From: Parietaria judaica
Taxonomy: Eukaryota; Streptophyta; Magnoliopsida; Rosales; Urticaceae
Direction of reading: 5' to 3'
Length of the DNA: 64,000 nucleotides
Assembly (NCBI GenBank): GCA_954871525.1
Contig: OX940869.1
Span: forward strand, 18,132,001 to 18,196,000
A program made the position numbers and the translations under genes. The notes beneath the pieces were generated by a model. The model ran no database searches, was not told where the DNA came from, and was given only the letters and a program-made list of their open reading frames with translations. Shown piece after piece: positions 10,978-40,497 of this stretch. The stretch's first letter is position 1; every line of letters begins with the position of its first letter.

Positions 10978-11716
10978 ATGGCGCTCGGGGAAGGAATTAC
11001 TGGCCAAAGCTATACGAGCGAGTCCGGGATGGTCGTCGAAGAAGGTTGGGGACGGCCCAAGGAAGACACGGCGGAAGCACGAGAAGGAGATGATCACGCG
11101 ATGATGGACGGTTGGAAGAATGAGGAGTGGCCGGAGAGCGATGAGCCGTGTCCAATGATGGAGGACACCACGGAGAGCCAACAGGACCAGGAGGAGCCAA
11201 GGGTCTCAGGTGAACCACACCCCGCAATGGAACTTGTCCTGCTGTATCTTAGCCTTGAGGAACTCCTTGCGATGGAGACGGTGTGCACATCATTGCGCGA
11301 CGAGGTTCGGGGGAACAGCCTTCTGTGTCGCAACCTCAGTATCGACGACCCGATGAGCGAGCGGCTCGAAGATGAGAATCTTCTGAATCTGGCGAGGAGG
11401 TCTCAAGGGAGGATGGAGACCCTGACGCTGAATAGGGGCTTCGAGATCACCAACGCCGCGTTGAGGATAATTCTGTAGGATAACCCAACAATCATAAAGT
11501 TATGCCTGCCGAGATGCCACCGAATCACCACAGACGACGTGGTCAACAACCTGTCCACCATAAAGCACGGAATAAAATTCCTAAGGGTCAACAGGCTCGG
11601 GTTCAGTTACGAGGGGTTCAGTTACAAAGAGGGAGCCAGGGCCAGACTCGAGGACCTTCCCGCGCTGCTCGCGGCAGGGAGCCCGACCAACGACCTCGAG
11701 CAGCAGAAGCTCGAGG
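10978..11716 (+). pseudogene. Captured SKIP14-like F-box gene in F1 (truncated, nonsense codon)
   Basis: The frame opens at ATG 10978 (MALGEG). An F-box-like segment ELVLLYLSLEELLAMETVC lies at residues 84-102, followed by leucine-rich text of the type LTLNRGFEITNAALRIIL. That order matches the plant F-box protein SKIP14, a substrate-receptor subunit of SCF ubiquitin ligases. At 11476 TAG replaces the CAG seen in the F2 copy. The frame then continues without stops to about 11716, where it fuses to LTR sequence. About 10 residues that arise from a short tandem duplication (GFSYEGFSYK) are present here but not in F2. The Cys-rich C-terminus is lost. Upstream leader 10439-10977 holds no other gene. 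A host function was presumably lost; the family assignment rests on pattern recall. Confidence 0.75.
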
Positions 11717-12375
11717 AGGATTATCTCCGAGGGGGTTCTAGCGCGAGGAAGTATGGCCGCACAAAAGCAGATCGCGATGAAGTGTCCCATCACGTTCGAC
11801 GAGGAGTTTCGTCATGATGGTTTATACAGAGCCGAATGACGGCTGACAGGATGTGCATTTAATGAAGCCGACCTACTCACTCGATGAGAAGCACCAGCGA
11901 CGAGGCTTGCAGGGCCGAATGACGACTGACGGGATGTGCATTTAATGAGGCTCACCTACCCGTAATGACAGTCTGCTCGAAAGTGACATAAAGCAGGGAT
12001 TAACCATGCTTCCCTCAAATCACTCTGGGAAGCGAATGATTAAAGAGAAAAAAGGCGGGAAAGACGCGAGGGCGACATAATGTAGACTCTATAAAAGGCA
12101 AGAGAAGCCCCATTTGTAAGGGGGTTGGTTCAGAAAAGAGGAAAAATAGAGAAAAAGCCCAGGAAAAAGGGAGAGATATCCTGTTATAGAAAGGCTATAG
12201 AAATAGAAAAAGCCTTCGCTCATGATCCTTCATCTGTCCAGCTATTCAACGAAAGAAAACCGAGCTCATATCGGAAAATATAATAAAACAAAGATATTCA
12301 CTGATTGTTGTTGTTAATTTGTTATTGGTGATTATTTTTGTGACTGGAAAAGGGCGGTGAAAATCGCCCTCTACA
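11714..12375 (+). repeat. F1 3' LTR, 5'-truncated
   Basis: It lacks roughly the first 125 bases of the family LTR and begins inside GAGGAGGATTATCTCC. The 3' end (CCTCTACA) and TSD are intact. Confidence 0.85.
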
Positions 12376-12395
12376 CTAATCAGGTACGTCCAACA

Positions 12396-12698
12396 TGTTC
12401 GAGGCTTCGTCGGTCACCTTTTGAGGCCTTATCAAGAAGGTATTATTATAGTTCTTGTTAAGCGTATTTTTTGAACCATATAAAATTGATCCCCGTTGGA
12501 GAACTATTAGCAAAGTCAAAGACCGAGAGCCCATGACCCAACTCATTCTGCGAGGCACAGAACCCCGAAGGCCCAAAAGACGAAACCCAAGACCGAAGTC
12601 TCCATCTAAGAAGGCGATTCGGATAACTCAACGAGGTTATCATAACCCCGAGAAAGTCATTGACCAAGGAGCAAGGGGATGAAGACCATTGTTTGTCA
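12396..12698. other. Spacer between head-to-head LTRs A and B, no gene identified
   Basis: About 300 bases separate the outer ends of two divergently oriented LTRs. An open frame of 75 codons (12455-12682, plus) has no domain I recognise. Confidence 0.5.
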
Positions 12699-14214: not shown

Positions 14215-14515
14215 GTCAAAAAGACAACGAGGCGACAAGCCGACGAGGCGACACGCCGACGAGGCGACACGACGACGAGATGACACGCCGACGAGGCGAC
14301 ACGCCGACGAGGCGACAAGCCGACCAGGCGACAAGCCGACCAGGCGACGAGGCGAAAAGACGACAAGGCGACGAGGCGACAAGCCTACAAGACGATAAGG
14401 CGACAAGCCGACGAGCCGACAAGGCGATGAGGCGACAAGCCGACGAGGCGACAAGGCGACAATCCGACGAGCCGACAAGGTGATGAGGCGACAAGGCGGC
14501 AAGCTGACAAGCACC
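14215..14515 (+). repeat. Minisatellite with GACGAGGCGACA-like units
   Basis: Short units of about 10-12 bases (variants of GACGAGGCGACAAGCC) repeat some 25 times. All frames on both strands stay open because of the periodicity; the resulting Arg/Asp- or Ser/Leu-rich products are not considered genes. Confidence 0.9.
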
Positions 14516-15541: not shown

Positions 15542-15543
15542 GT

Positions 15544-15556
15544 TGGTATCAGAGCC
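15544..15556 (+). promoter_or_regulatory. Element D primer-binding site
   Basis: TGGTATCAGAGCC, of tRNA-Met type, two bases after the LTR end. Confidence 0.9.
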
Positions 15557-15591
15557 AGGTTGCTTGTTCACGGTTTCTTATCATCATCCAA

Positions 15592-22159: not shown

Positions 22160-23213
22160 ATTGGTATCAGATCGGATATCAGTTCCGACAACGACGACTC
22201 AGAGGGGAACTCGGCAAGGCCATGGTGACCCCAGGGAGTCCCCGGTGAACCTACTGACGAAGCTCCCGACGAAGTCCCCGACAAACATCCTAACAAGTAC
22301 CCTTGTCGGGTGACGAACCCCCCTTGATAGGGCGACGAATATACTTGCCAAACGACGAACCCCTTTGTGGACGATGAAGCACCTTGACGAAGACATACCC
22401 CTCATTGATAACATCGACATGGGATATCTTGCAATGATTACACACGATGAGTATACCCGAGCTTACGATGGTCCTCAGGAGGTCCCCAGGATTCCTCCGG
22501 ACTCGACATACAAGCTCGCGGACACCCTGAAGACGCTATGGACGAGCCACAAAGCAATCGACTGACCCCTTGCCAAGACAAGGAGCCGCGGCAAGCTTCC
22601 CTGGCAAAGGGAAATGGCGCATTTTGTTGGGCCAATTAATGAGAAATATTCTTCATTAATTCCCCTTAACAAAAAAAAAAGGTTCACAATTTTCACCTAT
22701 AAATAGGAGGCTCATCTTCCTCATTTTGGAGACAAATCTCTTCCCAGAGTTTCTCTCTCTAAAACTCGACTTCTCTCTCTACAATTTCTAGTTCTCTCTC
22801 TCCTGTTGACTGATTTTCCCCCGCTCGCCAGGGAGCGACTCTCTCCTTTATCAGGAAGTCGTTCATCGGTCTTCCAGGGATCCCCCTCAAGTTGAATAGT
22901 CATACCTGCGCTGTCCAAGGCTCGATACCCTCGCTAGTTAAGACCCTCGGCATCAAAGTTAGTGAACACCCACACCGTCTACTACGACACCCTCGCCGAT
23001 AATACCTTCGTCGTCTTGAAGGTCACCCCCGCGCTGCCATTATCGATTCCAACGACTATACAAACCACCTCACCATTCCTCCACCTATCACTAACCTTGA
23101 ACTACGTGATGACTTGATCCACTCGACTACGAGTAGGTACGTAGGCAGCCTTGCTATACCAATGGGGTGTGACATCAATTATTTCATTTTTGTTGGTCCT
23201 CGCTTGCCGCCGC
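22160..23213 (+). mobile_element. C-family copy C2, left part (split by F2)
   Basis: A TATA box CTATAAATAGGAGG near 22700 is followed by a CT-rich leader, as in C1. The stretch near 23100-23160 (GAACTACGT...TAGGCAGCC) matches C1 near 20750-20800. The left boundary of C2 is not clear: 22160-22620 may instead be internal sequence of element B after its primer-like site at 22161. No coding function is seen. Confidence 0.55.
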
Positions 23214-23991
23214 TGTAGAGGGCGATTTTCACCGCCCTTTTCCAGTCACAAAAATAATCACCAATAACAAATTAACAACAACAATCAGTGAATATCTTTG
23301 TTTTATTATATTTTCTTATATGAGCTCGGTTTTCTTTCGTTGAATAGCTGGACAGATGAAGGACCATGAGCAAAGGCTTTCTCTATTTCTATAGCCTTTC
23401 TATTACAGGATATCTCTCTCTTTTTCCTGGGCTTTTTCTCTATTTTTCCCAACCTCTGCAAATGAGGCTTATCTTGCCTTTTATAGAGTTTACACTATGT
23501 CCCCCTCGCGTCTTTCCCGCCTTTTTTCTCTCTTTTTGCTTCCCAGAGTGATTTGAGGGAAGCATGGTTAATCCCTGCTTTATGTCACTTCCGAGCAGAC
23601 TGTCATTATGGGTAAGTGAGCCTCATTAAATGCGCATCCCGTCAGCCGTCATTTGGCCCTGCAAGCCTCGTCACTGGTGCTTCTCATCGAGTGAGTAGGT
23701 CGGCTTCATTAAATGCACATCCCGTCAGCCGTCATTCGGCTCTGCATAAACCATCATGACGAAATTCCTCGTTGAACGTGATGGGACACTTCATCGCAAT
23801 CTGCTTTGTGTGGCCATACCTCCTCGCGGTCGAACCTCCTCGAAGATAATCCTCCTCAAGGATAGTCCTTCTCGGGGATATGCCTTGTTTGCCCCCTCGG
23901 GCGATGAACTTCCTCGCCTTCCCTCATGTCGTTTATGGACAAAACGACCAAGTTGTGTTGAGGATGGATTTGACCAAATCTGACCTTAACA
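23214..23991 (-). repeat. F2 3' LTR
   Basis: It reads TGTAGAGGGCG...CCTTAACA on the plus strand, the reverse of the F1 and F3 LTRs. Length 778 bp, equal to the partner LTR. Confidence 0.92.
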
Positions 23992-24007: not shown

Positions 24008-24367
24008 ATCAAGTGTATACACTTGGTAAAATAAAGTGTAATCTTCTTGATGAACTCTTAGCGATGAGGATTCCCCAATGACGCTAAACGAGGGGTTTTC
24101 GCGAAAATCCTCGTTAATGACCGAGAAGGTCCGACTCTCTCGCTTCTCCGACCGTTGCCTGGTTCTGGGCCCCACCTTGGTTTACTTTCCCAAAATTCGT
24201 CAGCCTCGAATCTTTCACACGTCCCTTCAGCATTATATGCCACCTTTTCGTACTCAAGTACTTGTGGGGATTTATAACGGGCCCTTGACACGAGCCGTTG
24301 ATGAGTTCGCGAGCTTTGAATTTGGGTCGTTGGATCAAAACGCGCCTATCCATTCTTTTTCCCCTTC

Positions 24368-24374
24368 TATAAAT
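24368..24374 (+). promoter_or_regulatory. TATA box of the antisense gene in F2
   Basis: TATAAAT lies about 140 bases before the ATG at 24516, on the strand opposite to F2 itself. It suggests an independent promoter next to the 3' LTR. Confidence 0.6.
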
Positions 24375-25541
24375 TCAGAGTTTATACCCACCTTTCCAGA
24401 CATTTTTCGTATTTTCAAAAATTCTCTCTAAACTGCCCCTGCGACATTCACTCTCCGTTCCTACTCTTATTCCCTTGTCTTCAAGTTTCTTCTTCCTTCT
24501 CTCCTAGACGCTTTGATGGCTCCTTCCCGCTCCGGCCTGGTCTTTAAGACCCGAAGCCTTGTCTCTGTCATGACGACCGAGAGTTTGCAGTTTATAATAA
24601 ACAACTGTTCAGATTCGGAGCTCTTTTTCGCACGTCTCCCCTTCGAGGGTGAATTCGTCGATGAGCCTCAGAACGACTTTGTCTGCATCTATGAGTCGTT
24701 CTTCTGCATCGTCGGTCTTCGCTTCCCGGTACCGCTCTTGATCGTGGCGTTCCTCTACGCCTTTGGGGTTCCGATCGCCCAGGTGAGCCCCAACACACTT
24801 TGCCTCCTCCTCTGCACACTCGTTATTGCATGCGAGCAGAAATTGGAGCTTACGCTCGAGGACTTGATGCGCCTCTTCAAGGTCTCCCGGAATCCAAAGA
24901 ATTTGGGCCGCTTTGCCATCTCTCATTGCGTTCGACCGCACATTCTCAAGAATACGCCGTCGAACGAGTCCAGCTGGGAGAATAAGTATTTCTTCGTTCG
25001 GGTGGACAACTCCAACTTTGGTCCCCACCACTCTTTCCTACCGAGGGAGTTGGTACTCGAGGGAGTGGATCTCCCTCGATTTAAGCCCGAGGAGAACGAA
25101 GAGGCTGATGCGCGGTTCAAAGAGATCCACGCTGCTCTCCTTGCCAACCCTAGGCGCGATTGGAATAAGGACTTCGGGGATCGGTGGATCGAGAAGTCTG
25201 GGGTCTATCAATTGGCCCGAATTCACGGGGCGCCTCCAAACACTCTTCTCCCGGTGGAGAAAACCGAAGAAGAAATCCGAGGAGAAAACCGTCGTTGCTA
25301 GGGACGATACTCCTGTTGATAGGGATCGGGAGGTGCTGAGACCGTCGAGGTCCCAGGCAGGACCCGACGCTCCTCGCTACATGGGGCTCACCCTTCGAGA
25401 GGGTGGTCCCCCGAGTAAACGCCCTATCGAGGATACTCGCGATGAGCGGCAGACAAGATCCAATACAGATTCCGTCGCCCGCTCTCCGACGGAAGTTTCT
25501 CGCTCCTCGAGGAGATCCCCTCGAGAAGAAAGCTCGTCGGG

Positions 25542-25858
25542 TGATGTAGGGCGTTATTCAACGAGAGAAAGAACGCTAAAATTATCAAGCAAAGCTGATT
25601 TTTCTTTCCTTCCAAAAAACTGTCGATTACAATCCCAGAGGCAAAGCTCAAATAGTGCATGGAGATAACACTTAGCAGACTTAGGAAATATAACATACTA
25701 ATTATCCTAGTAAATCAAAACATGGGAAATACGATATAATAAATTATCTAGGAACTCATGCTTAGTAATTATGAAATACTACTAGGAAATGAAAACTATT
25801 AAATAGCCGTTAGTTGATAACACGGTCTTCACGATCTTCGGGATTGGTCGCTGCATCA
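25542..25858 (-). repeat. E 3' LTR
   Basis: A 317-bp LTR, termini TGATG/CATCA. The pol frame ends 49 bases inside it. Confidence 0.95.
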
Positions 25859-26879
25859 TTCTCCCCCGGGTCGAAAAAATTCGTCCTCGAAGTTGCAAGC
25901 ACAGCGTCGTCGGTGTTATCGCCGGTGTACGGAATGAGATGCTTGACGTTAAAAACATCGGCCGTACGAATGTGAGACGGAAGCTTGAGGCGGTATGCAT
26001 TTGCATTAATCTTCTCGAGAATTTCGACGGGTCCAATTGTCTTTGCTTTAAGCTTGTTGTACTCATGGGCCGGAACACGTTCTTTGGTAAGGACGGCCCA
26101 AACAAAGTCACCCACAGCAAAGTCGACCGGTCTTCTTTTCTTGTCCGCGGCTGTTTTGTAACGGAGGGTTGCTTGTTCAAGCCGAGATGATGTGGTGCGA
26201 TGAGTTGTCTGGAGCTGTTCAATGAAGGCAGTGGCTTCACCATGAAGACGTGTGTTGTCAGGGATCGGGGCAAGGTTGAGCGGGCAGCGAGGGATGATGC
26301 CGTAGACAACTTGGAATGGGCTGAAACCTGTGCTACGGTTAGTGGCGTGATTGTGTGCGAACTCGGCTTGACTGAGCTTCAAATCCCACCCTTTGATTGA
26401 TTCGCCCACAAGGCACCGAAGGAGATTCCCGAGCGAGCGATTCACGACTTCAGTTTGACCGTCAGTTTGTGGATGGTACGCGCTACTGAAATCAAGTCGA
26501 GTATCCACGAGGCGCCAAAGAGATCTCCAAAAGTGGCTTAAGAATCGTGTATCACGATCGGAGACGATCGATGTCGGGAGTCTGTGGAGGCGATATACTT
26601 CTCGAAAAAAAAGTGAGGCAACGTGTACCGCATCGGTAGTCTTGCGACATGGAATGAAATGAGCCATCTTTGAAAATCGGTCAACGACGACAAAGATAGA
26701 GTCATGGCCGCGTTGGGTGCGGGGAAGACCGAGCACAAAATCTATACTAATGTCGACCCACGGTTGTGTCGGTACCGGAAGTGGCATGTAGAGACCTGCG
26801 TTTGTTGCTTTGTCTTTGGCGAGGTGGCATGTGCGGCAACGTTCGACAAAGCGTGCGACGTCGCGTCGTAAGGAAGGCC
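25810..26879 (-). CDS. E integrase part of pol (after the frameshift)
   Basis: From the break near 26880 the reading continues in a new frame to the stop at 25810. It covers the rest of the integrase zinc region (CRTCHLAK), the catalytic core and the C-terminal domain. The DDE residues are visible in SIDFVLGLP, SDRDTRF and TEVVNRS. The C-terminal part (VGDFVWAVLTKERVP, then YRLKLPSH) is typical of gypsy integrases. There is no chromodomain. The frame overlaps the 3' LTR, as in Reina/CRM-like elements. The integrase would insert the cDNA into the genome; with a repaired frame it looks intact. Confidence 0.9.
25859..25870 (-). promoter_or_regulatory. E polypurine tract
   Basis: CCCGGGGGAGAA on the minus strand, abutting the 3' LTR. 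Confidence 0.8.
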
Positions 26880-29800
26880 AAAATAAGAAGACGCGACAAG
26901 TTGATGAGTGCGATCCCGACCAACATGGCCTTCGTTATGCAAGTCACGGATGATCTTTAGGCGGAGGCTGCCCTCGGGAATACAAAGGCGTGTGTTGTAG
27001 AATAAGAACCCATCGGACCACGAGAACTCGGGATGTATGGTCGTGTGAAGCTGTTGGACAACATTCGCAAAGAAAGGGTCTACCGCGTAGAGTTCGGTCA
27101 AAGAATCAAACCCGGGCACTTCAATGCGCATTTTAGTGAGTAAGGAGTGACGACGGCTGAGTGCATCGGCAACGCGGTTCAAGACGCCCGCTTTATGCTT
27201 GATTGAAAATGTGAATTGTTGTAAAAAGGCAATCCAAGAAGCGTGACGCGCGGAGACCTTGTCTTGAGTGCCGAGGTGTTTTAATGCATCGTGATCGGTG
27301 TAGAGAAAAAACTCTTTTTGGAATAGATAATGGCGCCAATGATGAACAGCGCGGACGATGGCGTAAAACTCGACGTCATATGTGTTGTAGCGCGACTTTG
27401 GGCCGGTGAGTTTTTCACTAAAGTAGGCGACCGGGCGATTGCCTTGGCTAAGGACGGCACCGATTCCTACTTTCGATGCGTCACAATGGAGTAAAAAGGG
27501 CTGCTCAAAGTCGGGTAAGACAAGGATCGGGGCGCTCGTGAGTAGCTCTTTGATCCGCTCGAACGATACGGTCGCTTCGGGTGACCAATGAAAACGACCA
27601 TTTTTTATGCATTCGGTAACCGGAGCCATCACGGAGCTGAAATGTGGAATGAACCGTCGGTAAAAAGACGCGAGGCCGTGAAAGCTACGCACTTCCGTTA
27701 CGTTGGTGGGTTGTGGCCACGAAGCTACGGCGTGGACCTTTGAGTCATCGACGCTAAGTCCGTCGGCGGAGATTACATAGCCCAAAAATGTGACACGGTC
27801 GGTGAGGAAAACACACTTCCCAACGGCGGCGTAAAATGAGTGGCTGCGAAAAATGTTAAGGACCTCGCGAAGATGTTGTAAGTGGATATCGGCGTTAGCG
27901 CTATATATCAAAATGTCATCAAAATAAACTACAACGAATTTACCGATGAAGGGGCGCAATGCTTGGTTCATGACACGCATAAATGTGCTCGGCGCGTTTG
28001 AAAGGCCGAAAGGCATGACGAGCCACTCGTAGAGTCCTTCGCGCGTTTTGAAAGCGGTTTTCCATTCATCGCCGGGCCGGATGCGTATTTGGTGATACCC
28101 GCTCTTCAAATCCAATTTGCTAAACACACGTGCACCACTTAATTGGTCGAGTAAGTCGTCGAGTCTTGGTATAGGAAAACGGTATCGCACCGTAATCTTA
28201 TTGATGGCGCGGCTATCGACACACATACGCCAAGTACCATCCTTCTTGGGAGTGAGCAAAGCAGGAACCGCGCATGGACTTAGACTCTCGCGGATGTGTC
28301 CTTTTTCAAGAAGCTCTTCAACTTGACGCCGAAGTTCCTCGTGTTCGGCCGGACTCATGCGGTAATGGGCTCGGTTCGGTAGCGACGCATCGGGCATAAA
28401 ATCAATCCGGTGTTGAATGTCACGAAGAGGTGGAAGCTCGGCGGGAAGATCCTGTGGAAAAACGTCCGTAAATTCCTCGAGCAGCGGCTGGACGGACGAA
28501 GGCACCGGGGATGTGTCGGGGGCTGTTTTGCCGAGAAGTGCGTATACAATTCCGGTTTCGGACATTTCGGCTTCAAACTCAACACGTGAGAGTAGTGACA
28601 TGGTCGGTCTACGAGCAGGGGTTGTAGCGGGATTCGAAGGGAGAAGCACAATTTTCTTTCCACCGAAAAAGAAACTGTAAGTGTTTGCTAGTCCGTCGTG
28701 AATTGCGTGACGATCGAATTGCCATGGGCGTCCGAGGAGTAAGTGACAAGCGTCCATTGCCACGACATCACACATAATCTGGTCTCGATACGTAGCGCCA
28801 ATGGAGAACGACACCAAAGCCCGATGAGAAATGGTCACATCGGTGCCGTTTTGGAGCCACGCCAATTTGTATGGTTTAGGATGTTTTTCCGCTTCGATCC
28901 CTAATTTCTTGAGAACGTCTTCGGCGATGACATTCTCGCAGCTCCCGGAATCAACGACAAAGCGACACACTTTCTCGTTAATGGTACATGAAGATTGGAA
29001 TATATTATTCCGAAGCCAACCGTCATCGCGGCTCGACGGTGTGAGAAAGTTCCGACGAAGGACGAGTGCATGACCAATATCGCCTGTGACTTCCTCGATT
29101 ATGTCATTCGTGTCGGCAACATCATCGAAGACAGGATCGCCAATGATTTCAATTGTCTCGTCGGCGAGGAGACCGCGACGAGGGTTTTGTGGACAATTGT
29201 TCCGGCGATGGCCTTGTGCACCACAACCGAAACACCGGACACCACCACCTACAGCCGCAAGTGGGGTGGGATTCGCACCATGTAGGGGCTGTACAGGTGC
29301 AATCGGAATGTGTGGAGCTGCAGTAGGGGATTTTTGACTCACTTGTGCAGTCACCGTGTTAAAAGAGCGGCGAGATTGTTGCTTCTCGATGGCAAGAGCA
29401 CGCTGATGTGCTTCGGCGACGGTGATGGGGTCGAACATGTTTAACACGTCTTGGATTTGGACTCGTAGGCCGCCGATGTATCGGGACACGGTTTGCTCCA
29501 CTGTTTCGGCGATGTCATTTCGTGCTAGAAGTAGAAAAAATTCAGTGGAATAATCAATGACAGACCTTGTGCCTTGGCGGAGATTCTGGAGGTTTTGATA
29601 AAGCGTGCGAGTGTAGTTGTACGGCAAAAACGCAGATCGCATATGCTTCTGCATCTTCGCCCAAGTAGCGATCTTTTGTTTTCCAGAACGAGCCCGTTGT
29701 GCTTTTGTTTGCGTCCACCAAGCGGCTGCACGACCTCGGAAGCGCGTAGCGACAAGAGATGCTCGTCGGTTCTCGGGGACCGCCTTAAAGTCTAGAACTT

Positions 29801-30152
29801 CGTCGACCGCTGCAATCCAATCGAGAAATTCCTCGGCATTAACATTGCCGTGGAATTCTGGGATTTCCATTTTAAACGCTGATTCCCATCGTGTATCGGC
29901 ATTCAAAACTTCGGCGCGCTGGCGGGCTGGAATCGGCGGAGCGACGGCGGGTGCGAACGGGTTAACTTCTTCAGGTTCGGAATCGTCTAAAGGGGCCACC
30001 GGTGTTACGGGTCGCTGTTGCATAAGCGCTTCAACGGAGCGGGTGAGGGCCTCCACTTGTTGACGAAGACCGGCGACTTCGTCACGTCTATAAACGTCAT
30101 CTAGATCAGCATCACGATCGAGAATTCCTCCACGTCGGCCACGGCGCGGCAT
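26742..30152 (-). CDS. E gag-pol polyprotein (gag, protease, RT, RNase H, start of integrase)
   Basis: An uninterrupted 1136-codon frame starts at ATG 30152 (MPRRGRRGG). Gag core is at residues about 85-260, zinc knuckle CFGCGAQGHRRNNC at 307-320, protease VVDSGSCENVI with Asp401, and RT with [10 protein letters not shown] (FDD at 744-746). RNase H shows [15 protein letters not shown] and TDHDALKHLG, and the integrase zinc region starts HNEGHVGRDRT. The text leaves the integrase frame after SSYF (near 26880): a run of four T stands where five would keep YFWPSLRRD in frame. The last 46 codons (26742-26879) are therefore out of frame. Either a real one-base deletion or a sequence error. All catalytic motifs upstream look intact. 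Confidence 0.95.
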   Translation of the reverse strand: MPRRGRRGGILDRDADLDDVYRRDEVAGLRQQVEALTRSVEALMQQRPVTPVAPLDDSEPEEVNPFAPAVAPPIPARQRAEVLNADTRWESAFKMEIPEFHGNVNAEEFLDWIAAVDEVLDFKAVPENRRASLVATRFRGRAAAWWTQTKAQRARSGKQKIATWAKMQKHMRSAFLPYNYTRTLYQNLQNLRQGTRSVIDYSTEFFLLLARNDIAETVEQTVSRYIGGLRVQIQDVLNMFDPITVAEAHQRALAIEKQQSRRSFNTVTAQVSQKSPTAAPHIPIAPVQPLHGANPTPLAAVGGGVRCFGCGAQGHRRNNCPQNPRRGLLADETIEIIGDPVFDDVADTNDIIEEVTGDIGHALVLRRNFLTPSSRDDGWLRNNIFQSSCTINEKVCRFVVDSGSCENVIAEDVLKKLGIEAEKHPKPYKLAWLQNGTDVTISHRALVSFSIGATYRDQIMCDVVAMDACHLLLGRPWQFDRHAIHDGLANTYSFFFGGKKIVLLPSNPATTPARRPTMSLLSRVEFEAEMSETGIVYALLGKTAPDTSPVPSSVQPLLEEFTDVFPQDLPAELPPLRDIQHRIDFMPDASLPNRAHYRMSPAEHEELRRQVEELLEKGHIRESLSPCAVPALLTPKKDGTWRMCVDSRAINKITVRYRFPIPRLDDLLDQLSGARVFSKLDLKSGYHQIRIRPGDEWKTAFKTREGLYEWLVMPFGLSNAPSTFMRVMNQALRPFIGKFVVVYFDDILIYSANADIHLQHLREVLNIFRSHSFYAAVGKCVFLTDRVTFLGYVISADGLSVDDSKVHAVASWPQPTNVTEVRSFHGLASFYRRFIPHFSSVMAPVTECIKNGRFHWSPEATVSFERIKELLTSAPILVLPDFEQPFLLHCDASKVGIGAVLSQGNRPVAYFSEKLTGPKSRYNTYDVEFYAIVRAVHHWRHYLFQKEFFLYTDHDALKHLGTQDKVSARHASWIAFLQQFTFSIKHKAGVLNRVADALSRRHSLLTKMRIEVPGFDSLTELYAVDPFFANVVQQLHTTIHPEFSWSDGFLFYNTRLCIPEGSLRLKIIRDLHNEGHVGRDRTHQLVASSYFGLPYDATSHALSNVAAHATSPKTKQQTQVSTCHFRYRHNRGSTLV

Positions 30153-30175
30153 GTTGATGGTGGCAGCGATCGGAA

Positions 30176-30188
30176 GGCTCTGATACCA
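30176..30188 (-). promoter_or_regulatory. E primer-binding site
   Basis: TGGTATCAGAGCC on the minus strand, two bases from the 5' LTR end; tRNA-Met type. Confidence 0.9.
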
Positions 30189-30190
30189 AC

Positions 30191-30507
30191 TGATGTAGGG
30201 CGTTATTCAACGAGAGAAAGAACGCTAAAATTATCAAGCAAAGCTGATTTTTCTTTCCTTCCAAAAAACTGTCGATTACAATCCCAGAGGCAAAGCTCAA
30301 ATAGTGCATGGAGATAACACTTAGCAGACTTAGGAAATATAACATACTAATTATCCTAGTAAATCAAAACATGGGAAATACGATATAATAAATTATCTAG
30401 GAACTCATGCTTAGTAATTATGAAATACTACTAGGAAATGAAAACTATTAAATAGCCGTTAGTTGATAACACGGTCTTCACGATCTTCGGGATTGGTCGC
30501 TGCATCA
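30191..30507 (-). repeat. E 5' LTR
   Basis: 317 bp, no difference from the 3' LTR seen by eye. Confidence 0.95.
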
Positions 30508-32264
30508 TCGGGCAAGCGGCCCGTCGAGGAGGTATGCGAGGCTTCTCCTGCGAAGAAGGCTAAGGTTCCCGCCCCGGCCCCCGAGCCCGAATCTGCTACT
30601 CCGTCTCAGGGAGTAGCGAAGGGGGAGTCGGGCACCGCGCCCGTAGAGGGCGAGGCTGAGAGGACAGGACTGGTGTCGGACAGGCGCGCACGCCCCGCCG
30701 CGAATCCACTGGAGAGATTGGACTTCGAGGATATCGAGCACCTGGTCATCGCGCCGAACGCTCCTCCTCCACCCTCTTTCGGAGTTGAAAGTTCCATACT
30801 CCCTCCCGTTACTGGGGTCGCGACCCGGCCCTCTCCGTCGTCATCTCGGGGAATCCCCGATGAAGCGACGCGGAACCTGGCCGCGGCTTCTACGTCTTCT
30901 ATTCAATCTCCGGTCAAAGAGACCCCAGTTCCGAATGAAGAAGATACGGGACCTATTGGCAAGGAGGACGCCCAAGGAGGGACATCCGCACCTGTCGGGC
31001 GCGAAGGCGACCAGGGACAGATCCCCTTTGGACGCGAGGAGGAGCAGCCCGGGGCATTCCTCGAGGTTAATCCTCCAGGCTTGAAGCCCCTTTCCGACGC
31101 GCCTGGTATCGAGGCCCTCGAGGGCTTAGGGATCCAGCCCTCTCCCGAACTTACCGGCATCTCCGGCTTACAGGTACCTCTCATCGCTCCTTCTGGCGCG
31201 CCGCCGAAATCAACGGGTGACTGGACGCAGCCCTCTGTGTCGTCCCTTGACCCCGAGGAGGCACCTACCGGGTTGCCACGGGCTCAAGCCGGCTTCCCGG
31301 CCATGCCACCTCCTGGTGCACTTCCTGAGGGTCGGGAGGTTTACTTCTCTGCCGCGTGCAAGGGCCTCACCCCGGAGGCCGAAGCTTCTCACGGGCTCGT
31401 CGATCCTCTCGACGAGTCCGTGGGATACTCGGAGCTAATTGACCATGTCCTCCGGGGGGTAGGCCGGCTGAAATATGTGATTGCCTCCGAACGGCTATCC
31501 ACCGCTAAATCCGAGAGAAAGGCCAGTGAGTTGTCGGCGGAGCTCGCGCTAATCCGGGGGCAACTTGAGGTCTCCACCCGCGACGGGCGGAAGTTCCGGG
31601 AGCAGGCCCAGAAGCTTTCTTCGGAACTCGACGAGACCAAATTTGCCTTAGAGTTGGAAATCTCGTTGCGCCGGGCCGCAGAGGCCGAGCTTGAGGAACA
31701 GAAGAACTCCTCTGCCGCTAGGGAGGCGGATCTCTCCAACATGCTCGGGCTGAAGGCTGAACGCCTCGCCCAGATCGGTGAGGCCGTCGGCGTACCGATC
31801 GAACAAGAAGATTGTCTGGTGTCCCGGGTCAACGCCGTGTTGAGGAAGTTTTCCGAGGACTTAGAGGCTGCGCGAGCCGGGACTGTTGAAGAGCGTCACG
31901 GCCGAGAGCGCCTGTTTGAAGCGGCCCAAGCCAAGCTGGAGCACCTCTCGACGAGGTTTGATTTTCTCGATCAATCCATCAACGCCCATCGCTTGGCCGC
32001 CGCGTACCAAGCCAATATTGGCTTGGCCGAGAAGGTCCTTCCTGCGACACCCATCGAGGGTCTCGAGACCCGCCTGCCTTCGTGGCGGGAAAGCCGCGAT
32101 AAGTACCGGGCTGAGGCAGACGAGCTGGACAAGAAGTCTTCCCGGGATCCCGATTCCCAGCCGCTCTCCCCTTGTAAGCCGCCGGCCCTCGACAGCCGGA
32201 GGGTTGAGAGCCTTGTCCTGGAGGGGGCTTCTCTCGGATCCTCACCGCGCCTCCGGAGCCCACG

Positions 32265-32519
32265 GTATAGGATGTTTTCTTGGAGTTTCCCTTCCAATTT
32301 CCCTCTCTTTTGTAAAATTTCGAATGTTGTGGCTCTTTCTGTAACCCAAGCGTTTAAGCGAATTATCATATAAATAAAAGAAATCATTTTCGGGTTACCT
32401 TTTCCTTTCATCGCTAAGCTTCTTCGCTATTGCCCTCGTATACTTGTTTTCCCTTTTTTTTTATCATCGGGCCTCCTTACTATTTCCTTCGCATCTCCAC
32501 TCTCTCTTCTCCTTCGCAG
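32265..32519 (+). other. Proposed intron 1 of the F2 antisense gene
   Basis: It starts GTATAGG after CCCACG, has a pyrimidine-rich end, and ends CTTCGCAG before GCCGGAGG. On the F2 genomic (minus) strand these signals are reversed, so the intron would not be spliced from the element RNA. Confidence 0.6.
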
Positions 32520-33287
32520 GCCGGAGGTGGTACCATTGTTCTTTACCCCGACGCCTCTTCCACCAGTGATGGAGGAGGTTACGAGGGGGCGGAAGGGCCT
32601 GCGTCTGCTCTCGATCTAACGAGGAGTTTATCGGGGAATGAAGTTGCTCTCCTCGAGACTACAGAAGCTAAGCTCGCCGAATGTAGGGCGGAGCGTGACG
32701 AAGATAGATGCCTCCTCGCCATTGCCGAAGAGTCCCTCCTTGAGGAATGACAGCGTTATCAGCGGTGCGAAGAGACACTCTCGGCGCAGCTCCGGCAGAA
32801 AAACGAGTCTTTCAACCGAATCGCCGACGCCATAAACCTGTTGCCCGGCCGGGAAGAGCAAATCTCTTTCCACGTCAAGGCCATGCTGAGGAAACTCGCC
32901 AAGGACCGCGACGCAGCCAGGAGTTGGACAATAGAGGAGGAATTTTCTCGCTTACGCCTTTATCATCAAGCGACCGACAAGATGAGGCACGCCTTTGAGA
33001 GGTTTGGTGATCTCGAGGAGATTGTCCTCATTCAGCGCCTGCTGGGCGGTGTGCTCTCGAATATCAAGCTCATCGAGGGGCTACCTTCTCGCTCGACCGT
33101 TGGTGAGCTTCGAGCCAAACTGCCAAGGTGGCGCAGGTTGGAGCAGGAATACCTGGCTGATTTGGCCGGACTGGAGAAGAAAATCTCCGGTGCTCCTAAC
33201 TCTCCTCCGCTTTCCCCTTGTCTCCCTCCGAGTGTCGCTAGGGCGCGTTCGCCAGGTTTTGACGTTCTTCCTTCCTCGTCGAGCACG

Positions 33288-33370
33288 GTATGGGGCATCC
33301 TAGCTTAGACATTCTACAGTTTTACCTTTTCTTTGGGGTTGGTTCCTCACTCTTGGCTTCTCCTTTGCAG
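33288..33370 (+). other. Proposed intron 2 of the F2 antisense gene
   Basis: 83 bases, GTATGG to CTTTGCAG. The flanking frames join in phase 0 (SSST / ADSKVD). Confidence 0.65.
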
Positions 33371-33687: not shown

Positions 33688-34600
33688 CAATCTACGAACT
33701 TGTACGGGCTTGCTCGGCGCCCATAGCCGTAAATATATTTTCTCTTTGCTCGGCACTCTCGCCGGCTCGGGCTTGCTCGGCGCCCTTAGCCGTAAATATA
33801 TTGTTTTTTGCTCGGCACTCTCACCGTACCTCTTTTTCTCGGCACTCTCGCCGTACCTCTTTACTCGGCACTCTCGCCGTACCTATTTACTCGGCACTCT
33901 CGCCGTACCTCTTTTTCTTGGCACTCTCGCCGTACCTCTTTACTCGGCACTCTCGCCGTACCTCTTTACTCGGCACTCTCTCCGTACCTCTTTTTCTTGG
34001 CACTCACGCCGTAGTTATCAATTGCGGGTATCGCTGGGTTTCATCGGGTACGAGCCGACTAGTTTCCAGGACCCCATAGGCACTCTCGCCTTGTTTATTT
34101 CCTCGGCACTCTCGCCGGATCAGGCTTACTCGGCACCCTTAGCCGTATATATATATTTTCCGTTTGCTCGGCACTCTCGCCGGCTCGGGCTGGCTCGGCG
34201 CCCTTAGCCGTATATATATTTTCTTTATGCTCGGCACTCTCGCCAGCTCGGGCTTGCTCGGCGCCCTTAGCCGTATATATATTTTCTCTTTGCTCGGCAC
34301 TCTCGCCAGCTCGGGCTTGCTGGGTGCCCTTAGCCATATATATATTTTCTTTTTGCTCGGCACTCTCGCCGGCTTGGGCTTGCTCGGCGCCCTTAGCCGT
34401 ATATATATTTTCTTTTTGCTCGGCACTCTCGCCGGCTCGGGCTTGCTCGGCGCCATTAGCCGTATATATATTTTCTTTTTGCTCGGCACTCTCGCCGGCT
34501 CGGGCTTGCTCGGCGCCCTTAGCCGTATATATATTTTCTCTTTGCTCGGCACTCTTGCCGGCTCGGGCTTCCTCGGCGTCCTAGCCGTAAATATATACTT
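33688..34600. repeat. Tandem repeat zone in F2 with GCTCGGCACTCTCGCC units
   Basis: About eight units of ~60 bases (CTCGGCACTCTCGCCGGCTC... ending in CCGTATATATATTTTC) are accompanied by about nine shorter ~24-base units (CTCGGCACTCTCGCCGTACC) near 33800-34010. The zone lies between the two divergently encoded genes of F2. Long open frames here come from the periodicity. Confidence 0.95.
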
Positions 34601-34870
34601 TTTTTTCTTTTTTTTCTTTTTTTTGCATATGAATATCGCGAGGATACTTTTCTTTCTATTTGGCATTCTCACCGAACAGAGTTGTACACACGTTTTTGTC
34701 AACTTATACTTTCCCTCGTTTCTAAAAGTAAAAACATACATATAGACATTAAAACTGAAACAAATTTTCATCATCTAACAAGGCCGAAGAGTAATCATCA
34801 TTGAGAGGCCACGCCAAAAGGGTTCGTAGAGGCTTCTCGGTAGGTTAACCCTCCCTTCTCGTCGAGCAGC
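34601..34870 (-). other. F2 internal sequence left of the F3 insertion
   Basis: Near the insertion site (34805-34870) the minus-strand frame of the F-box tail stays open through the TSD for some 24 codons (TLLDEKGGLTYREAS...). The rest holds no recognisable gene. Confidence 0.5.
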
Positions 34871-34875
34871 GTACG

Positions 34876-35656
34876 TGTTAAGGTTGGATTTGGTCAAATC
34901 CATCCTCAACACAACTCATGTCGTTTTGTCCGTAAACGACATGAGGGAAGGTGAGGAAGTTCATCGCCCGAGGGGGCAAACAAGGCGTATCCCCGAGAAG
35001 GACTATCCTCGAGGAGGATTATCTTTGAGGAGGTTCGACCGCGAGGAGGTATGGCCACGCAAAGCAGATTGCGATGAAGTGTCCCATCACGTTCAACGAG
35101 GAATTTCGTCATGATGGTTTAAGCAGAGCCGAATGACGGCTAACGGGATGTGCATTTAATGAAGCCGGCCTACTCACTCGTTGAGAAGCACCATCGATGA
35201 GGCTTGCAGGGCCGAATGACGACTGACGGGATGCGTATTTAATGAGGCTCACCTACCCATAATGACAGTCTGCTCGGAAGTGACATAAAGCAGGGATTAA
35301 CCATGCTTCCCTCAAATCACTCTGGGAATCAAAAAGAGAGAAAAAAAAGGCGGGAAAGACGCGAGGAGGACATAGTGTAAACTCTATAAAAGGCAAGATA
35401 AGCCTCATTTGCAGAGGTTGGGAAAAATAGAGAAAAATCCCAGGAAAAAGAGAGAGATATCCTGTAATAGAAAGGCTATAGAAATAGAGAAAGCCTTTGC
35501 TCATTATCCTTCATCTGTCCAGCTATTCAACGAAAGAAAACCGAGCTCATATCGGAAAATATAATAAAACAAAGATATTCACTGATTGTTGTTGTTAATT
35601 TATTATTGGTGATTATTTTTGTGACTGGAAAAGGGCGGTGAAAATCACCCTCTACA
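34876..35656 (+). repeat. F3 5' LTR
   Basis: 781 bp, TGTTAAGG...CTCTACA, followed by the primer site TTTGGCGCCCACCGAGAG at 35658-35675. Confidence 0.9.
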
Positions 35657-35720
35657 GTTTGGCGCCCACCGAGAGGTTTGTTTTCTTTCTAACTCACAGC
35701 CAGGAATTTGAAGGAGCGAG

Positions 35721-37240
35721 ATGTCGTCGAGTGACACCATCATCAGTATAGAAGAGGACGAAGTCCCAGCCATGGAGAGACTTCAGCGGCAGTTGGCCGA
35801 GGCCACAGAAAAAGGCGATAGCAGCAACAAGGATGGCCGAGGAGGCGGCCAGGAAAGCGGAAGAACGGGATGAGAGGAACGGGCAGCTCACCGCTCTCTT
35901 AGATCACGCGATTGCGAGCCAAAGAAGGGAAGGTCCGGAGAGCACGATCGCGGGATCTTTGGCTCAAGGAGAACGGGGAGCCCCAGCCGGAATAGAGCAA
36001 GGAATCTTGACGCCGCAGGCGCCACCAATCAATCGGGATCTTTTCAACGCCGCCGGAGTGACACCGGTAACCACGACGAACCCGCAAGGGGGCTTGGCAA
36101 CCACCATAGCAGAAACAATTAAGGAGGAGGTCCGGAGAGCGATGAGGGACATATCCTCGAGCATGGAGGCAAAGATGGGGCACGTGGCTTCACAGGTGCA
36201 TAAGGCCACGAGAGCGGCACCCGAGATCGACAGATTGGTCAGGGAGGCCAGAGTAACCCCTTTCTCGGCCAGAATCTGAAGCGTGGAGCTAGGAGAATTG
36301 CCAAAGGTCAGGCTCTCGCAGTACAGAGGGACTTCAGATCCAAACACCCATGTGAAGTCATTCCGGATCGCTACGGAGCGTATAGGCGGCGAAGAGACGA
36401 AGCTAGAGGCTATCCTGTGCCATCTCTTCATCGAGAGCTTGCAAGGCCCGGCGAGCGACAGGTTCGCAAAGCTACCATCGCAGTCCATCGGCGACTCCGA
36501 TGAGCTCGTCGCATGCTTTTTGCAGCACTACTCAATGTACGTGCAGAACGAGGCAACTGTCACGACCTTGTGGAACCTCTCACAAGGACGAGAAGAAACT
36601 CTCTTACAGTACGTCGAAAAATTCAAGGATGTCATGGTCAGGATCCAGGGGCTCGATGACATCATCGCAATCCAGGCACTGAAGCATGGACTGTGGTATT
36701 TAGCTCCTTTCCGCGAGGAGTTGATAAAAATGCGCCGTCGACGATCGAGGACGCACTCCACAGGGCGACGCTCTTCATGGAAATAGAGGAAGAGACTCTA
36801 GCCTAGAAGAAGATCCACGAAGGTGGAAGCAAGGGAAAGCAGCACGGAAAAAGGGAAAACGGGGACGGAGGAGATGTCCCGTCGTCTAGAGCGAGGAAGG
36901 GAGAAGAAGATTGAAGAAGTTCCAGCGAGCGACGAGCTCGGTAAGTTCCGAGGCAAGAAGTCTATCAGGTAGACGAGAACAAGAACCACGACTACAATAG
37001 GGGAAACCAGCAGCGAGAAGGATTCTCGGAGGACCGAGGAGGATTCTCGGAGGACCGAGGAAAATTCTCTGAGGATCGAGGAGGAAACTTCGGGAACCGA
37101 GGAGGATTCTCCGAAGACCGAGTAGGATTCTCCGGAAGCCGAGGGGGCTTCTCAGGAGGCCGGGGAGGCTTCGGCAGGAAGCCTTGGCCGAAGGATATGA
37201 GTAAGTTCTGCACTTACCACAACTATAACGGCCACGCCAC
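35721..37240 (+). pseudogene. F3 gag
   Basis: ATG at 35721 (MSSSDTIISIEEDE). One extra A near 35810 breaks the frame; it resumes at 35833 (MAEEAARKAEER), a charged helical segment. A TGA lies near 36280. The gag core at 36283-36720 contains ETLLQYVEKFKDVMVRIQGL. A missing A near 36729 shifts the frame again, with stops after it. Then seven-residue GGFSEDR-like repeats (37018-37190) form an RGG-like, probably RNA-binding segment, followed by CTYHNYNGHATEDC at 37207, the knuckle-like motif of Tat elements. Not translatable as one protein. Confidence 0.88.
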
Positions 37241-37931
37241 TGAGGATTGCGCCATGCTGAAGAAGGAGCTCCAGAGGAGGTACGCGCGGGGGGAGATTAA
37301 AGACCTCACGTACAAACCATCCGTGCCTTGGAATAACAGTAACAGGGCATGGCAGAGCTGGCAAGAAGGACCGGCGCATAACGAGGGAAATGATCGAGAC
37401 GGAGCAAAGAGAAACCTAGCGATCGAATCACCGACGGCAAGGCACAATGAGGGAGAACGACCGGCCTCAAGGACGAGAATTGAGGTGATCATGGGCGGAT
37501 CGCGGTTCTGCGAAGATTCGGTCAACAGCATCAAAGTTTATCAGCGAAGGGGGAAGGAGCACGGCCAAGGAGACATAACGATGGGTGCTACGGGCGCGAA
37601 GATAGAGTTCGTGGAGAACGAGGACTGTGCTGATATGCACGATGACGCCCTAGTCCTCGAACTCAACATCGGTGGTTGCGAGGTTTGCCGTATACTCGTT
37701 GACAACGAAAGCTCGGTCGACGTCATTTTCTATGAGTGCCTGATGAAGATGGGTATCGAGGGACTCACGATCGGGGGACGTCCTCGCAAGGTGTCAGGTT
37801 TCAACGGGGACGTCGCCATCTCAATGGGGACAGTCCACCTCCCGGTCTGCGCGGGGAGTGTCAACCGGATGAAGGAGTTTATGGTGTTAAATGTCCCGTC
37901 GCATTTTAACATTATCCTTGGGAGACCTTGA
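37241..37931 (+). pseudogene. F3 aspartic protease region
   Basis: The frame continues from the knuckle to 37931. The catalytic region reads ILVDNESSVDVIFYE, where DNGSS is usual in this clade; the Gly to Glu change probably inactivates it. The strand motif IILGRP is followed by TGA at the position of a usual Trp. Confidence 0.85.
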
Positions 37932-38817
37932 ATCCACTCCATGAGAGCCGTGCCATCAACATACCACCAAAGCATAAAATTCCCGGGAAAAAGAGAAGGG
38001 GAAATCGAGGAACTCAAAGGGAGCAGGGACGCGTACCGAACCTGCTACATGATGCACCACAAGTCGATGGCTGCCGAGAAGGGAATCCAGCGGACGGAAA
38101 AAGGTGAACCGGCCGGTTTATAGCAATTAGCGGCACCCGCCCCAAGAATTCCAGGGCGAAGGAAGGGGCGGGGGAAAAGCGCCGCCAGGACGGCCAGGAT
38201 ACTTAGTACGGAAGACGTCGAGGCACAGAATGCCGAGGAAAGAAAAGGGGGAGCACAGATAGAGGAGGTAGAGCGAGTCTGCATCGACGAGTCCGACCCT
38301 ACTCGGACCATCGGTATAGGCGCAGAGCTCAATCCGGAGATCAGAGCACGAATAGTCAATTTCCTGAGGAAGAATCGGGGGAGTTTCGCTTGGTCTCATG
38401 AAGACATACCGGGGATCGACCCTTCGGTGACAGCTCATCGCTTCAACACCGATCCGAGGCATAAGCCCGTCGTGCAAAAAAGGAGAAAAATGGCCCCCGA
38501 TAGGAACAAGATCATCAATGACGAAGTAGATAAGTTGCTCTCGATGGGGACCATTCGAGAGGTAAAATATCCCGAGTGGCTGGCTAACACAGTCGTCGTA
38601 AAGAAGAAGAACGGCAAATGGCGAGTGTGCATGGACTTCACAGACCTAAACCGAGCCTGCCCGAAAGACAGTTTCCCGATGCCGCATATAGATCGCCTCG
38701 TCGAGGCCACCCACGGCTACGAACTTCTCAGCTTTATGGACGCTTACTCCGGGTACCACCAAATAAGGATGCACCCGGAAGACGAAGAGAAGACCGCCTT
38801 CATCAGCGAGAGGGGCG
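37932..38817 (+). pseudogene. F3 reverse transcriptase, N-terminal part
   Basis: After a short broken linker, the frame from about 38180 to 38817 shows FAWSHEDIPGIDP, VKKKNGKWRVCMDFTDLNRA, and [20 protein letters not shown]. It stops at TAFISERGV, before the catalytic YxDD box, where it fuses to LTR sequence at GGCGTAT. RT C-terminus, RNase H and integrase are missing. Confidence 0.9.
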
Positions 38818-39487
38818 TATCCTCGAGAAGGACTATCCTCAAGGAGGATTATCTTCGAGGAAGTTCGACCGCGAGGAGGTATGGCCACGCAAATCAGATT
38901 GCGATGAAGTGTCCCATCACGTTAAACGAGGAATTTCGTCATGATGGTTTATGCAGAGCCGAATGACGGCTGACGGGATGTGCATTTAATGAAGCCGACC
39001 TACTCACTCGATGAGAAGCACCAGCGGCGAGGCTTGCAGGGCCGAATGACGGCTGACGGGATGCGCATTTAATGAGGCTCACCTACCCATAATGACAGTC
39101 TGCTCGGAAGTGACATAAAGCAGGGATTAACCATGCTTCCCTCAAATCACTCTGGGAAGCAAAAAGAGAGAAAAAAAAAGGCGGGAAAGACGCGAGGGGG
39201 ACATGGTGTAAACTCTATAAAAGGCAAGATAAGCCTCATTTGCAGAGGTTGGGAAAAATAGAGAAAAAGCCTAGGAAAAAAAGAGAGATATCCTGTAATA
39301 GAAAGGCTATAGAAATAGAGAAAGCCTTTGCTCATGATCCTTCATCTGTCCAGCTATTCAACGAAAGAAAACTGGGCTCATATCGGAAAATATAATAAAA
39401 CAAAGATATTCACTGATTGTTGTTGTTAATTTGTTATTGGTGATTATTTTTGTGACTGGAAAAGGGCAGTGAAAATCTCCCTCTACA
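38811..39487 (+). repeat. F3 3' LTR, 5'-truncated
   Basis: It begins within GGCGTATCC, about 113 bases into the family LTR, and ends CCTCTACA before the TSD. Confidence 0.88.
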
Positions 39488-39492
39488 GTACG

Positions 39493-40497
39493 TGTCTTAC
39501 TCCGGGGCTTGTTCACTGATGATCGAGCAGGCTGAAGACACGACCTTCTGCAGAGAGTCTCTGCTGGGCGCCCATTGTTGCAGTCCGTGCAGACGTAGGT
39601 ATACCACGTGAGACCAAGGATTATGCATGATCTGCAGAAGCCACAAGCACGTCCATCTTGGCGTCGGCGAACACACGGCGGGCGGATGGTGTTCCTTTAT
39701 CCAACCTTCGTGGGCTTCTCATAAACCAGGACGTCCTTATCGCACCTCCTACAGAACTCCATGTCGAGCAGACGGTCGTGTGGTGAGGGCGTCTGCTGCT
39801 CGAGGTCGTCGGTCGGTCTCCTTGCTGCGAGCAGCGCGGGAAGGTCTTCGAGTCTGGCCCTGGCTCCTTCCTCATCGAGTCTGTTGACCCTTAGGAATTT
39901 TATCCCGTGCTTTATGGTGGACAAGTTGTTGACCACATCTTCGACGGTGATTCGGTGGTAGCTCGGCAGGCATAACTTTACGATCGTCGGGTTGTCCTGC
40001 AGAATTATCCTCAACGCGGCGTTGGTGATCTCGAAGCACCTATTCAGCGTCAGGGTCTCTATCCTCCCTTGAGACCTCCTCGCCAGTTTCAGAAGATTCT
40101 CATCTTCGAGCCGCTCGCTCATCGAGTCGTCGATAGTGAGGTTGCGCCACAGAAGGTTGTTCCCCCGAACCTCGTAGCGCAGCGACGTGCACACCATCTC
40201 CATCGCGAGGAGTTCCTCGAGGCTTAAAAACAGCAGGACCAGTTCCATCGTAGGATGCGGTTCACCTGGGACCCTTTGCTGCTCCTGGTCTTGTTGGTTC
40301 TCCGTGGTGTCCTCCATCATTGGACACGGCTCATTGCTCTCTGGCCACTCCTCATTTTTCCAGCCGTCCGTCATTACGTGATCATCTCCTCCTCGTGCCC
40401 CCGCCACGTCTTCCTTGGGCCATCCCCAACTTCCTTCTACGACCATTTCGGACTTGTCTGCATAGCTTTGGCCAGTAACTCCCTCCCCGAGCGCCAT
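39493..40497 (-). pseudogene. Captured SKIP14-like F-box gene in F2
   Basis: ATG at 40497 (MALGEGVTG), open to TAA at 39697 (267 codons). Acidic N-terminal third, then the F-box-like ELVLLFLSLEELLAMEMVC, the segment LLWRNLTIDDSMSERLEDE, leucine-rich text LTLNRCFEITNAALRIIL and VVNNLSTIKHGIKFLRV. The C-terminal DRLLDMEFCRRCDKDVLVYE starts a Cys-rich module. After one frameshift near 39700 the module goes on (ACGFCRSC, YVCTDC). This order and spacing match plant SKIP14 F-box proteins (SCF E3 ligase receptors). F3 interrupts the far C-terminus. It has no CAG-to-TAG change at the site broken in F1. If expressed, the first 267 codons would give a protein with F-box and repeats but a truncated Cys module. 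Confidence 0.75.

Follow-up and report, generated by a model that had tools for sequence, protein, structure and literature searches.

A gene homologous to the plant F-box gene SKIP14 is carried by a family of LTR retrotransposons in Parietaria judaica, and comparison of its copies indicates purifying selection on the encoded protein during the divergence of the family into subfamilies. SKIP14 is an adaptor in the host protein-disposal system. Two copies, F1 and F2, lie in the window, the 64-kb stretch of P. judaica DNA that was analysed and to which all coordinates refer (Table 1). Both are genuine insertions, and both belong to a single non-autonomous, Retand-like Gypsy family with the layout LTR, primer site, leader of ~500 bp, F-box ORF, tandem repeats, antisense ORFs and LTR. 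As in other LTR retrotransposons, F1 and F2 have two LTRs with TG...CA ends, a primer site and a 5-bp target-site duplication. The sequence-only reading had proposed the capture of a SKIP14-like gene by a retrotransposon family, which is supported by the homology, by LTR sequence upstream of the gene in 70 of 70 sampled copies and by the missing intron.

Both F-box copies in the window are broken. Their frames (10978-11475, plus strand, and 39697-40497, minus strand) are related, with 83% identity across the 166 aa of F1, and 24 nt present in F1 are missing from F2 as an in-frame difference; the copies differ, short indel included, as had been read earlier. Also as described before, each frame starts ~500 bp past an LTR, behind primer site and leader. 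A gene with F-box, leucine-rich repeats (LRR) and Cys tail had been claimed for both copies, but the tail is intact in neither. Homology of F1 to L031, a family member with an LTR pair, runs to ~11713 and is followed by a deletion of ~6.2 kb (size judged against L031) that takes out the Cys tail and the beginning of the 3' LTR. In F2 the tail can be read in the DNA but is absent from the 266-aa frame, due to a premature TAA and a frameshift further on. The proposed position between LTRs holds for F1, which has a true LTR pair, but not for F2: the LTR at 38814-39487 faces the opposite way to the F2 LTR at 41006-41783 and is the truncated 3' LTR of a nested gag-pol element (other LTR at 34876-35656). 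This element was inserted 9 nt beyond the homologous F-box stop of F2 and in the opposite orientation, and the true 3' LTR of F2 sits 16 kb off from the one first taken for it. That these structures arise from faulty assembly or annotation has next to no probability and nothing seen in its favour, as perfect 5-bp target-site duplications (TSDs) are found at four insertions (F1, F2 and both nested elements) and the identical layout recurs at many independent loci; an assembly artefact was rejected on the basis of the TSDs.

Table 1. Features of the two F-box elements and of the elements nested in F2 (window coordinates)
Feature	Position	Strand	Remarks
F1 target-site duplication	left 9632..9636, right 12376-12380		CTAAT
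F1 5' LTR	9637..10419	+	TG...CA; then primer site GTTTGGCGCCCACC...
F1 F-box ORF fragment	10978..11478	+	166 aa, then TAG at 11476-11478
F1 3' LTR	11710..12375	+	initial ~115-130 bp deleted; K2P 0.039 vs 5' LTR
F2 true 3' LTR	23214..23991	-	K2P 0.032 vs 5' LTR; TSD GCCGC at 23209-23213
F2 antisense ORFs, part 1	24078..25541	+	homologous to L031 antisense frames
Second nested element, Gypsy	25542..30507	-	~318-bp identical LTRs; long gag-pol frames; TSD TCGGG
F2 antisense ORFs, part 2	30513..33308	+	coiled coil; best matches are L031 antisense frames (72-91% identity)
F2 tandem-repeat array	33705..34608		homologous to L031 repeats
Nested gag-pol element	34876..39487	+	same LTR family as F2; gag, RT fragment; TSD GTACG
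F2 rest of F-box gene	39497..39696	-	Cys-rich tail to homologous stop codon, behind stop and frameshift
F2 F-box ORF	39697..40497	-	266 aa, then premature TAA 39697-39699; F-box at ~residues 80-122
F2 5' LTR	41006..41783	-	TSD GCCGC at 41784-41788

In most intact copies the element protein measures ~331-341 aa and consists of an N-terminus of its own, an F-box, an LRR part and an eight-cysteine tail. A profile comparison shows it to be a homologue of SKIP14 (E 2e-35), at ~35-37% identity to the host protein (37% across 185 columns). The homology covers F-box, LRR and the first part of the Cys tail in identical order, whereas the N-terminus and the tail end are specific to the element. No alignment was obtained to the N-terminal ~195 residues of SKIP14; the element ORF opens ~80 aa ahead of the F-box. 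An in-frame stretch ahead of the residues MALGEG was considered as coding and rejected, since its indels keep the frame in 2 cases against 18 that do not. Among the proteins compared, those of SKIP14 score 98-114 bits against the L031 protein, and matches to F-box/LRR proteins of solved structure are much weaker (FBXL2, 14 bits with the F2 protein as query). The Pfam F-box-like profile is matched at E <= 0.01 by 19 of 23 members (best 3.9e-6; the one member with a bit score shown falls below the curated cut-off). Neither a single element protein nor an alignment of 23 gave a match at the threshold used in a protein database that includes plant proteins (407 of its entries are related to a host SKIP14 exon); this search required shared 5-residue words and missed even SKIP14, so that the null result says no more than that close relatives did not turn up. 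A structure predicted from just the two window proteins was of no use (pLDDT 38). In a tree with SKIP14 genes the element sequences form one clade (n = 7, support 100), and the placement of the capture next to Coffea (support 71) was rejected as long-branch attraction (branch 2.2). An intron of the host SKIP14 gene is missing from the corresponding place in the element gene, pointing to a capture from the spliced RNA of a SKIP14-type gene.

The proposed search for further copies was productive: 144 loci in the genome match the element protein, and a SKIP14 bait adds 87, giving 231 F-box gene loci (6 of the 87 inspected and 81 counted uninspected; part of the 144 counted by match alone). Element copies filled the list obtained with the element protein. 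Primer-site junctions of the family number 1,109. Of twenty family members drawn by their primer site, nine have the F-box gene, nine have gag and none has both, the F-box form being about as common as the gag form in this sample. LTR, primer site and ~90 bp of leader are common to the F-box form and its gag-pol partner. Gag, protease and RT were not found in the internal region of any of the four F-box elements tested; a positive control was detected. The 3' half of F-box elements contains tandem repeats, and antisense ORFs are present. No Pfam match was found in the F2 antisense frames (part 1), and Transposase_28 matches in other copies are weak and below cut-off (E 0.036 in L031, in a frame homologous to those of F2, and 0.02 in L034). 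Judged by antisense ORFs and tandem repeats the family fits a Retand-like assignment, with RT found in none of the F-box forms tested. The earlier label Tat-type stands in a broad sense, both traits fitting the Retand branch of that lineage as described in the published account (PMC11963269).

The suggested dN/dS comparison between copies points to constraint. It has to be weighed against the view that the gene is a useless passenger, its apparent constraint being a product of few, young source copies and of a sample chosen by protein score. This view agrees with the broken state of F1 and F2, with stops in 29 of 70 copies (34 of 70 have intact frames) and with the mostly decaying LTR-captured genes reported for rice (PMC3726574). 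Also, the ratio of 0.395 on terminal branches is near the 0.33 on internal branches, and the neutral simulation itself already gives 0.59-0.78. Nonetheless, pN/pS lies below the value from that simulation, and dS reaches ~0.8 (0.79) between intact copies. This comparison used 23 of the uninterrupted copies and omitted L079 for its broken frame as well as L072, L073, L074 and L080, whose tails are different or truncated; L004 was dropped as the same place as L031, and the near-identical neighbours L006 and L008 were both retained. Internal branches carry no stop at all, frame-keeping indels dominate within the ORF and only there, and nearly every copy ends broken when selection is left out of the simulation. 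Nine copies drawn irrespective of their protein still give 0.385. We consider the passenger view unlikely; the sequence comparisons suggest that the F-box gene remained in working order over many cycles of transposition, perhaps for ~30-55 million years (from dS 0.79 and general substitution rates).

The best explanation, to which we give somewhat better than even chances, is a captured and selected F-box protein that acts for the element as receptor of an SCF ubiquitin ligase. A spliced SKIP14-type transcript would have been taken up by a non-autonomous Retand-like Gypsy family, replacing gag-pol, and a gag-pol partner with LTRs of the same family presumably supplies the proteins that move the F-box form. 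In the most likely mechanism the protein would bind SKP1 and serve as SCF substrate receptor, which may remove or modify a host factor that limits element expression or copying. The sequence-only reading had suggested that the element, if expressed, could compete with the host receptor. The shared order of F-box, LRR and Cys tail speaks for such a decoy or competitor of host SKIP14, but identity is only ~35%, the N-terminal region is absent and the protein ends are element-specific; the low ratio in the F-box region (0.186) suits a receptor and an SKP1 decoy equally. We regard competition with SKIP14 as quite improbable: given the low identity and the missing ~195-residue N-terminal part, the element protein could equally have substrates of its own. 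Still less probable is that host domestication of some copies, rather than element fitness, maintains the frame. The 34 intact frames do offer raw material for host genes, yet the constraint is seen on internal branches of copies that all lie behind LTR sequence, and an LTR-free copy was seen in 0 of the 70 inspected among the counted loci. As a tentative and rather doubtful extension of the SCF-receptor explanation, the family might be a two-part retrotransposon, with a gag-pol RNA form and an SCF-receptor RNA form aimed at a silencing or restriction factor, in which the non-autonomous form would be a contributor and not only a parasite.

If the SCF-receptor explanation is true, an element-borne ubiquitin-ligase receptor would make retrotransposon counter-control of the host directly testable via its substrate. 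To our knowledge, captures that are kept across a whole family and point to a single host pathway are rare. That LTR elements capture host genes was already known, as was one flax F-box Copia element; new here is the kept, family-wide F-box capture, of which we found no example in the literature searched. The results also suggest that screens based on RT as marker overlook captures in non-autonomous partners, and that annotations could count numerous F-box frames of such elements among the plant genes.

The flax Copia element likewise holds an F-box protein gene between its LTRs, termed gene capture in print. As far as the published passage goes it concerns a single insertion with RNase H retained, and SKIP14 origin, a copy family and a selection test are not mentioned there; the present family is Gypsy, with RT not found, 144-231 loci and constraint. 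The host SKIP14 gene itself shares F-box, LRR and the beginning of the Cys tail with the element gene, the ~195-aa N-terminal part and the intron being host-only. We know of no relation between SKIP14 and the viral F-box proteins P0 and Clink, which may be seen as functional analogues of the element protein, not as relatives. Polerovirus P0 (PMC6593998) and nanovirus Clink (PMC3588083) are described as parasite-encoded F-box-type proteins that meet SKP1.

Retand is described as a Tat Ty3/gypsy lineage that includes non-autonomous members, with antisense ORFs bearing Transposase_28 between the coding part and the 3' LTR; roughly half of its published clusters have tandem repeats in their 3' half (PMC11963269). 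Compared with this description the F-box family is alike in its tandem repeats and long internal region and in antisense ORFs near the 3' LTR, where a Transposase_28-like match is weak and below cut-off, and its LTR length falls inside the reported 315-1,194 bp (PMC11963269). Unlike in Retand, the F-box gene occupies the place of gag-pol, and the word F-box is absent from that text (PMC11963269). Orchid Gypsy elements with a captured AlkB/2-ODD gene also retain a host-derived gene across subfamily splits (PMC9289625). In the published account these are 25-kb elements located via reverse transcriptase, with the protein tested in vitro; F-box is not mentioned in the paper, and the 121 genomes were screened there with RT as the marker, a design that would miss RT-less elements (PMC9289625). 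Maize Bs1 and other transduced genes are reported to place host sequence between LTRs, as here (PMC7264820, PMC3726574, PMC13317346); in contrast to these, the P. judaica family has a single F-box unit that occurs in a great number of copies and whose frame is maintained.

The gene carried between the LTRs proves to be a family-wide feature. A genome search with the F2 protein, in which 144 of 642 candidates were scored, gave 144 loci. With a SKIP14 bait, one host gene matched best (C3:47418785-47419781; exons E 1e-60 and 5e-42), followed by 148 further places at 34-44% identity, 61 of them loci already found. Combined, the searches yield 231 F-box loci (clustering at 2.5 kb), which bears out the family proposed in the sequence-only reading: LTR sequence lies upstream in all 70 copies examined out of the 144 (L001-L030 minus L004, L031 and L036-L075). 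The LTR end precedes the ATG in 69 of these, at 472-536 bp in 67; the leaders of L005 and L013 are shortened, and in the 70th copy, L069, LTR body is found upstream. The frame is intact in 34 of the 70. Among the 87 bait-only loci, the six inspected (L078, L079, L081, L109, L112 and L114) all lie behind LTR or primer-site sequence. L073 and L074 carry an insert near codon 77-82 and different C-terminal ends with the frame maintained (359 and 368 aa). L006 and L008 are near-identical and 8.4 kb apart (C19:20810746-20822925), perhaps a tandem duplication.

In the reference full element, L031, the F-box ORF is followed by tandem repeats, antisense ORFs, which have a coiled coil and match Transposase_28 weakly, and the 3' LTR. 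Gag, protease and RT were sought in L031, L033, L034 and F2, all with negative results, and the positive control was detected. Relative to L031, F1 has an internal deletion of ~6.2 kb that brings the F-box gene up against the 3' LTR. F2 is interrupted by two nested insertions. One is a gag-pol element inserted 9 nt beyond the homologous F-box stop, and the right-hand LTR previously assigned to F2 belongs to this element. The other, a Gypsy element whose gag-pol occupies two frames of 1136 and 325 aa, both long, is a very recent insertion. Elsewhere in the window a 789-bp direct repeat (45903-46691 and 52517-53305, 98.6% identical), with a gag-like ORF of Copia type by eye adjoining the second copy, is perhaps a young Copia element.

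Features of the reference element (L031, own coordinates) and of the elements in the window
Feature	Position	Strand	Details
L031 5' LTR	224-1009
L031 F-box ORF	1561-2586		ATG at 1561, stop to 2586
L031 3' LTR	8414-9202
F1 element	9637-12375	+	LTRs in direct order; TSD CTAAT
F2 element	41783 to 23214	-	TSD GCCGC
Nested gag-pol element	34876-39487	opposite to F2	same LTR family; TSD GTACG
Nested Gypsy in F2	25542-30507		identical ~318-bp LTRs; TSD TCGGG

LTR K2P distances are 0.039 for F1, 0.032 for F2, 0.041 for the nested gag-pol element and 0.038 for L031, corresponding to about 1-3 million years at substitution rates of 0.7-1.3e-8. Since the nested element cannot predate F2, its excess is noise.

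A 27-base pattern spanning LTR end and primer site (up to 2 mismatches) occurs at 1,109 places in the genome; the reversed control gave 0. Twenty junctions were hand-picked down the first 100 (exact matches on C1 and C3; 14 and 6 taken). Nine carry the F-box, nine gag, two neither and none both; the family therefore has two coding forms in similar number on these contigs. Both forms share sequence in the LTR, at the primer site and over about 90 bp of the leader.

The captured gene had been read as SKIP14-like, and a profile of 23 element proteins indeed matches one of 15 SKIP14 proteins (99.9%, E 2e-35). Proteins annotated as F-box protein SKIP14, from Cannabis, Ziziphus, Quillaja and Vitis among others, appear in the 120 of 407 database matches listed for the host exon; the top match is unnamed (69%) and the top named one is from Parasponia (61%; Rosales, Cannabaceae). 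In a tree the host gene falls with its counterparts from Parasponia, Cannabis and Ulmus; these relationships point to a host within the Rosales. The seven element genes in the tree form one clade, fitting one capture. The L031 protein scores marginally higher against SKIP14 of Nelumbo (114 bits) than against the host protein (102 bits).

In host SKIP14 a phase-0 intron of 244 bp separates LVK from LSVPG; the element ORF is continuous there. The intron is probably old, because proteins P0001 and P0105 (Vitis) seem to read into the same one. The element gene thus probably derives from spliced RNA; less probably, the intron was lost after capture. Just after the intron the host gene (L077) has a serine (VPGSTRL), and Parasponia, Cannabis, Ziziphus and Nelumbo have cysteine. 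As the element gene has cysteine too, the capture may predate the host cysteine-to-serine change.

When 29 copies are compared against L031, frame-keeping to frame-breaking indels number 15:8 in the ORF and 2:18 in the in-frame stretch preceding MALGEG. In the leader the numbers are 7:39, and in the LTR 14:167. The reading frame has a pN/pS of 0.354, and the two shifted frames have 1.06 and 1.05. When noncoding sequence is treated as codons the values are 0.51-0.98, and one frame antisense to the ORF, with third positions in common, has 0.455. Across 70 copies the ratio is 0.325-0.336 on internal branches (0 stops) and 0.395 on terminal branches (35 stops), with the lowest internal value in the F-box segment (0.186). 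The dN/dS-type comparison among copies suggested earlier gives 0.418, below no-selection simulations (0.68-0.78 in four runs; 0.59-0.68 in four with ten-fold CpG decay). As simulated neutral values fall below 1, the yardstick for constraint is 0.6-0.8, not 1. Stop-carrying copies number 69/70 and 66/70 in simulation (one run each) versus 29/70 observed. Among 23 uninterrupted copies the median of 253 pairs is 0.352, and dS reaches 0.79 in the most divergent pair. Apart from L078 and L081, all of these copies were taken from a list ranked by protein match to the element query, which favours intact copies; the primer-site draw of nine copies gives 0.385, and five of these have no stop. On these comparisons constraint on the ORF looks real.

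The loci are unevenly spread: 229 of the 231 lie on seven of 13 large contigs (C1, C3, C5, C6, C8, C9 and C19; 315 Mb), with one each on C10 and C20 and none on C4, C7, C21 and C22 (about 217 Mb for these six). Either candidate picking has produced an artefact, or the chromosomes differ strongly in their load, as they might in a hybrid genome, although just one SKIP14 gene was seen.

One published case is a flax Copia element in which an F-box protein gene lies between the LTRs. In the open papers searched we found neither a family-wide, kept F-box capture nor a capture of SKIP14. 'F-box' has 0 occurrences in PMC11963269, PMC7264820, PMC3726574, PMC13317346, PMC9289625 and PMC6317226, and the F-box mentions seen in PMC7602945, PMC6135824 and PMC5664140 concern matters other than LTR-element captures.
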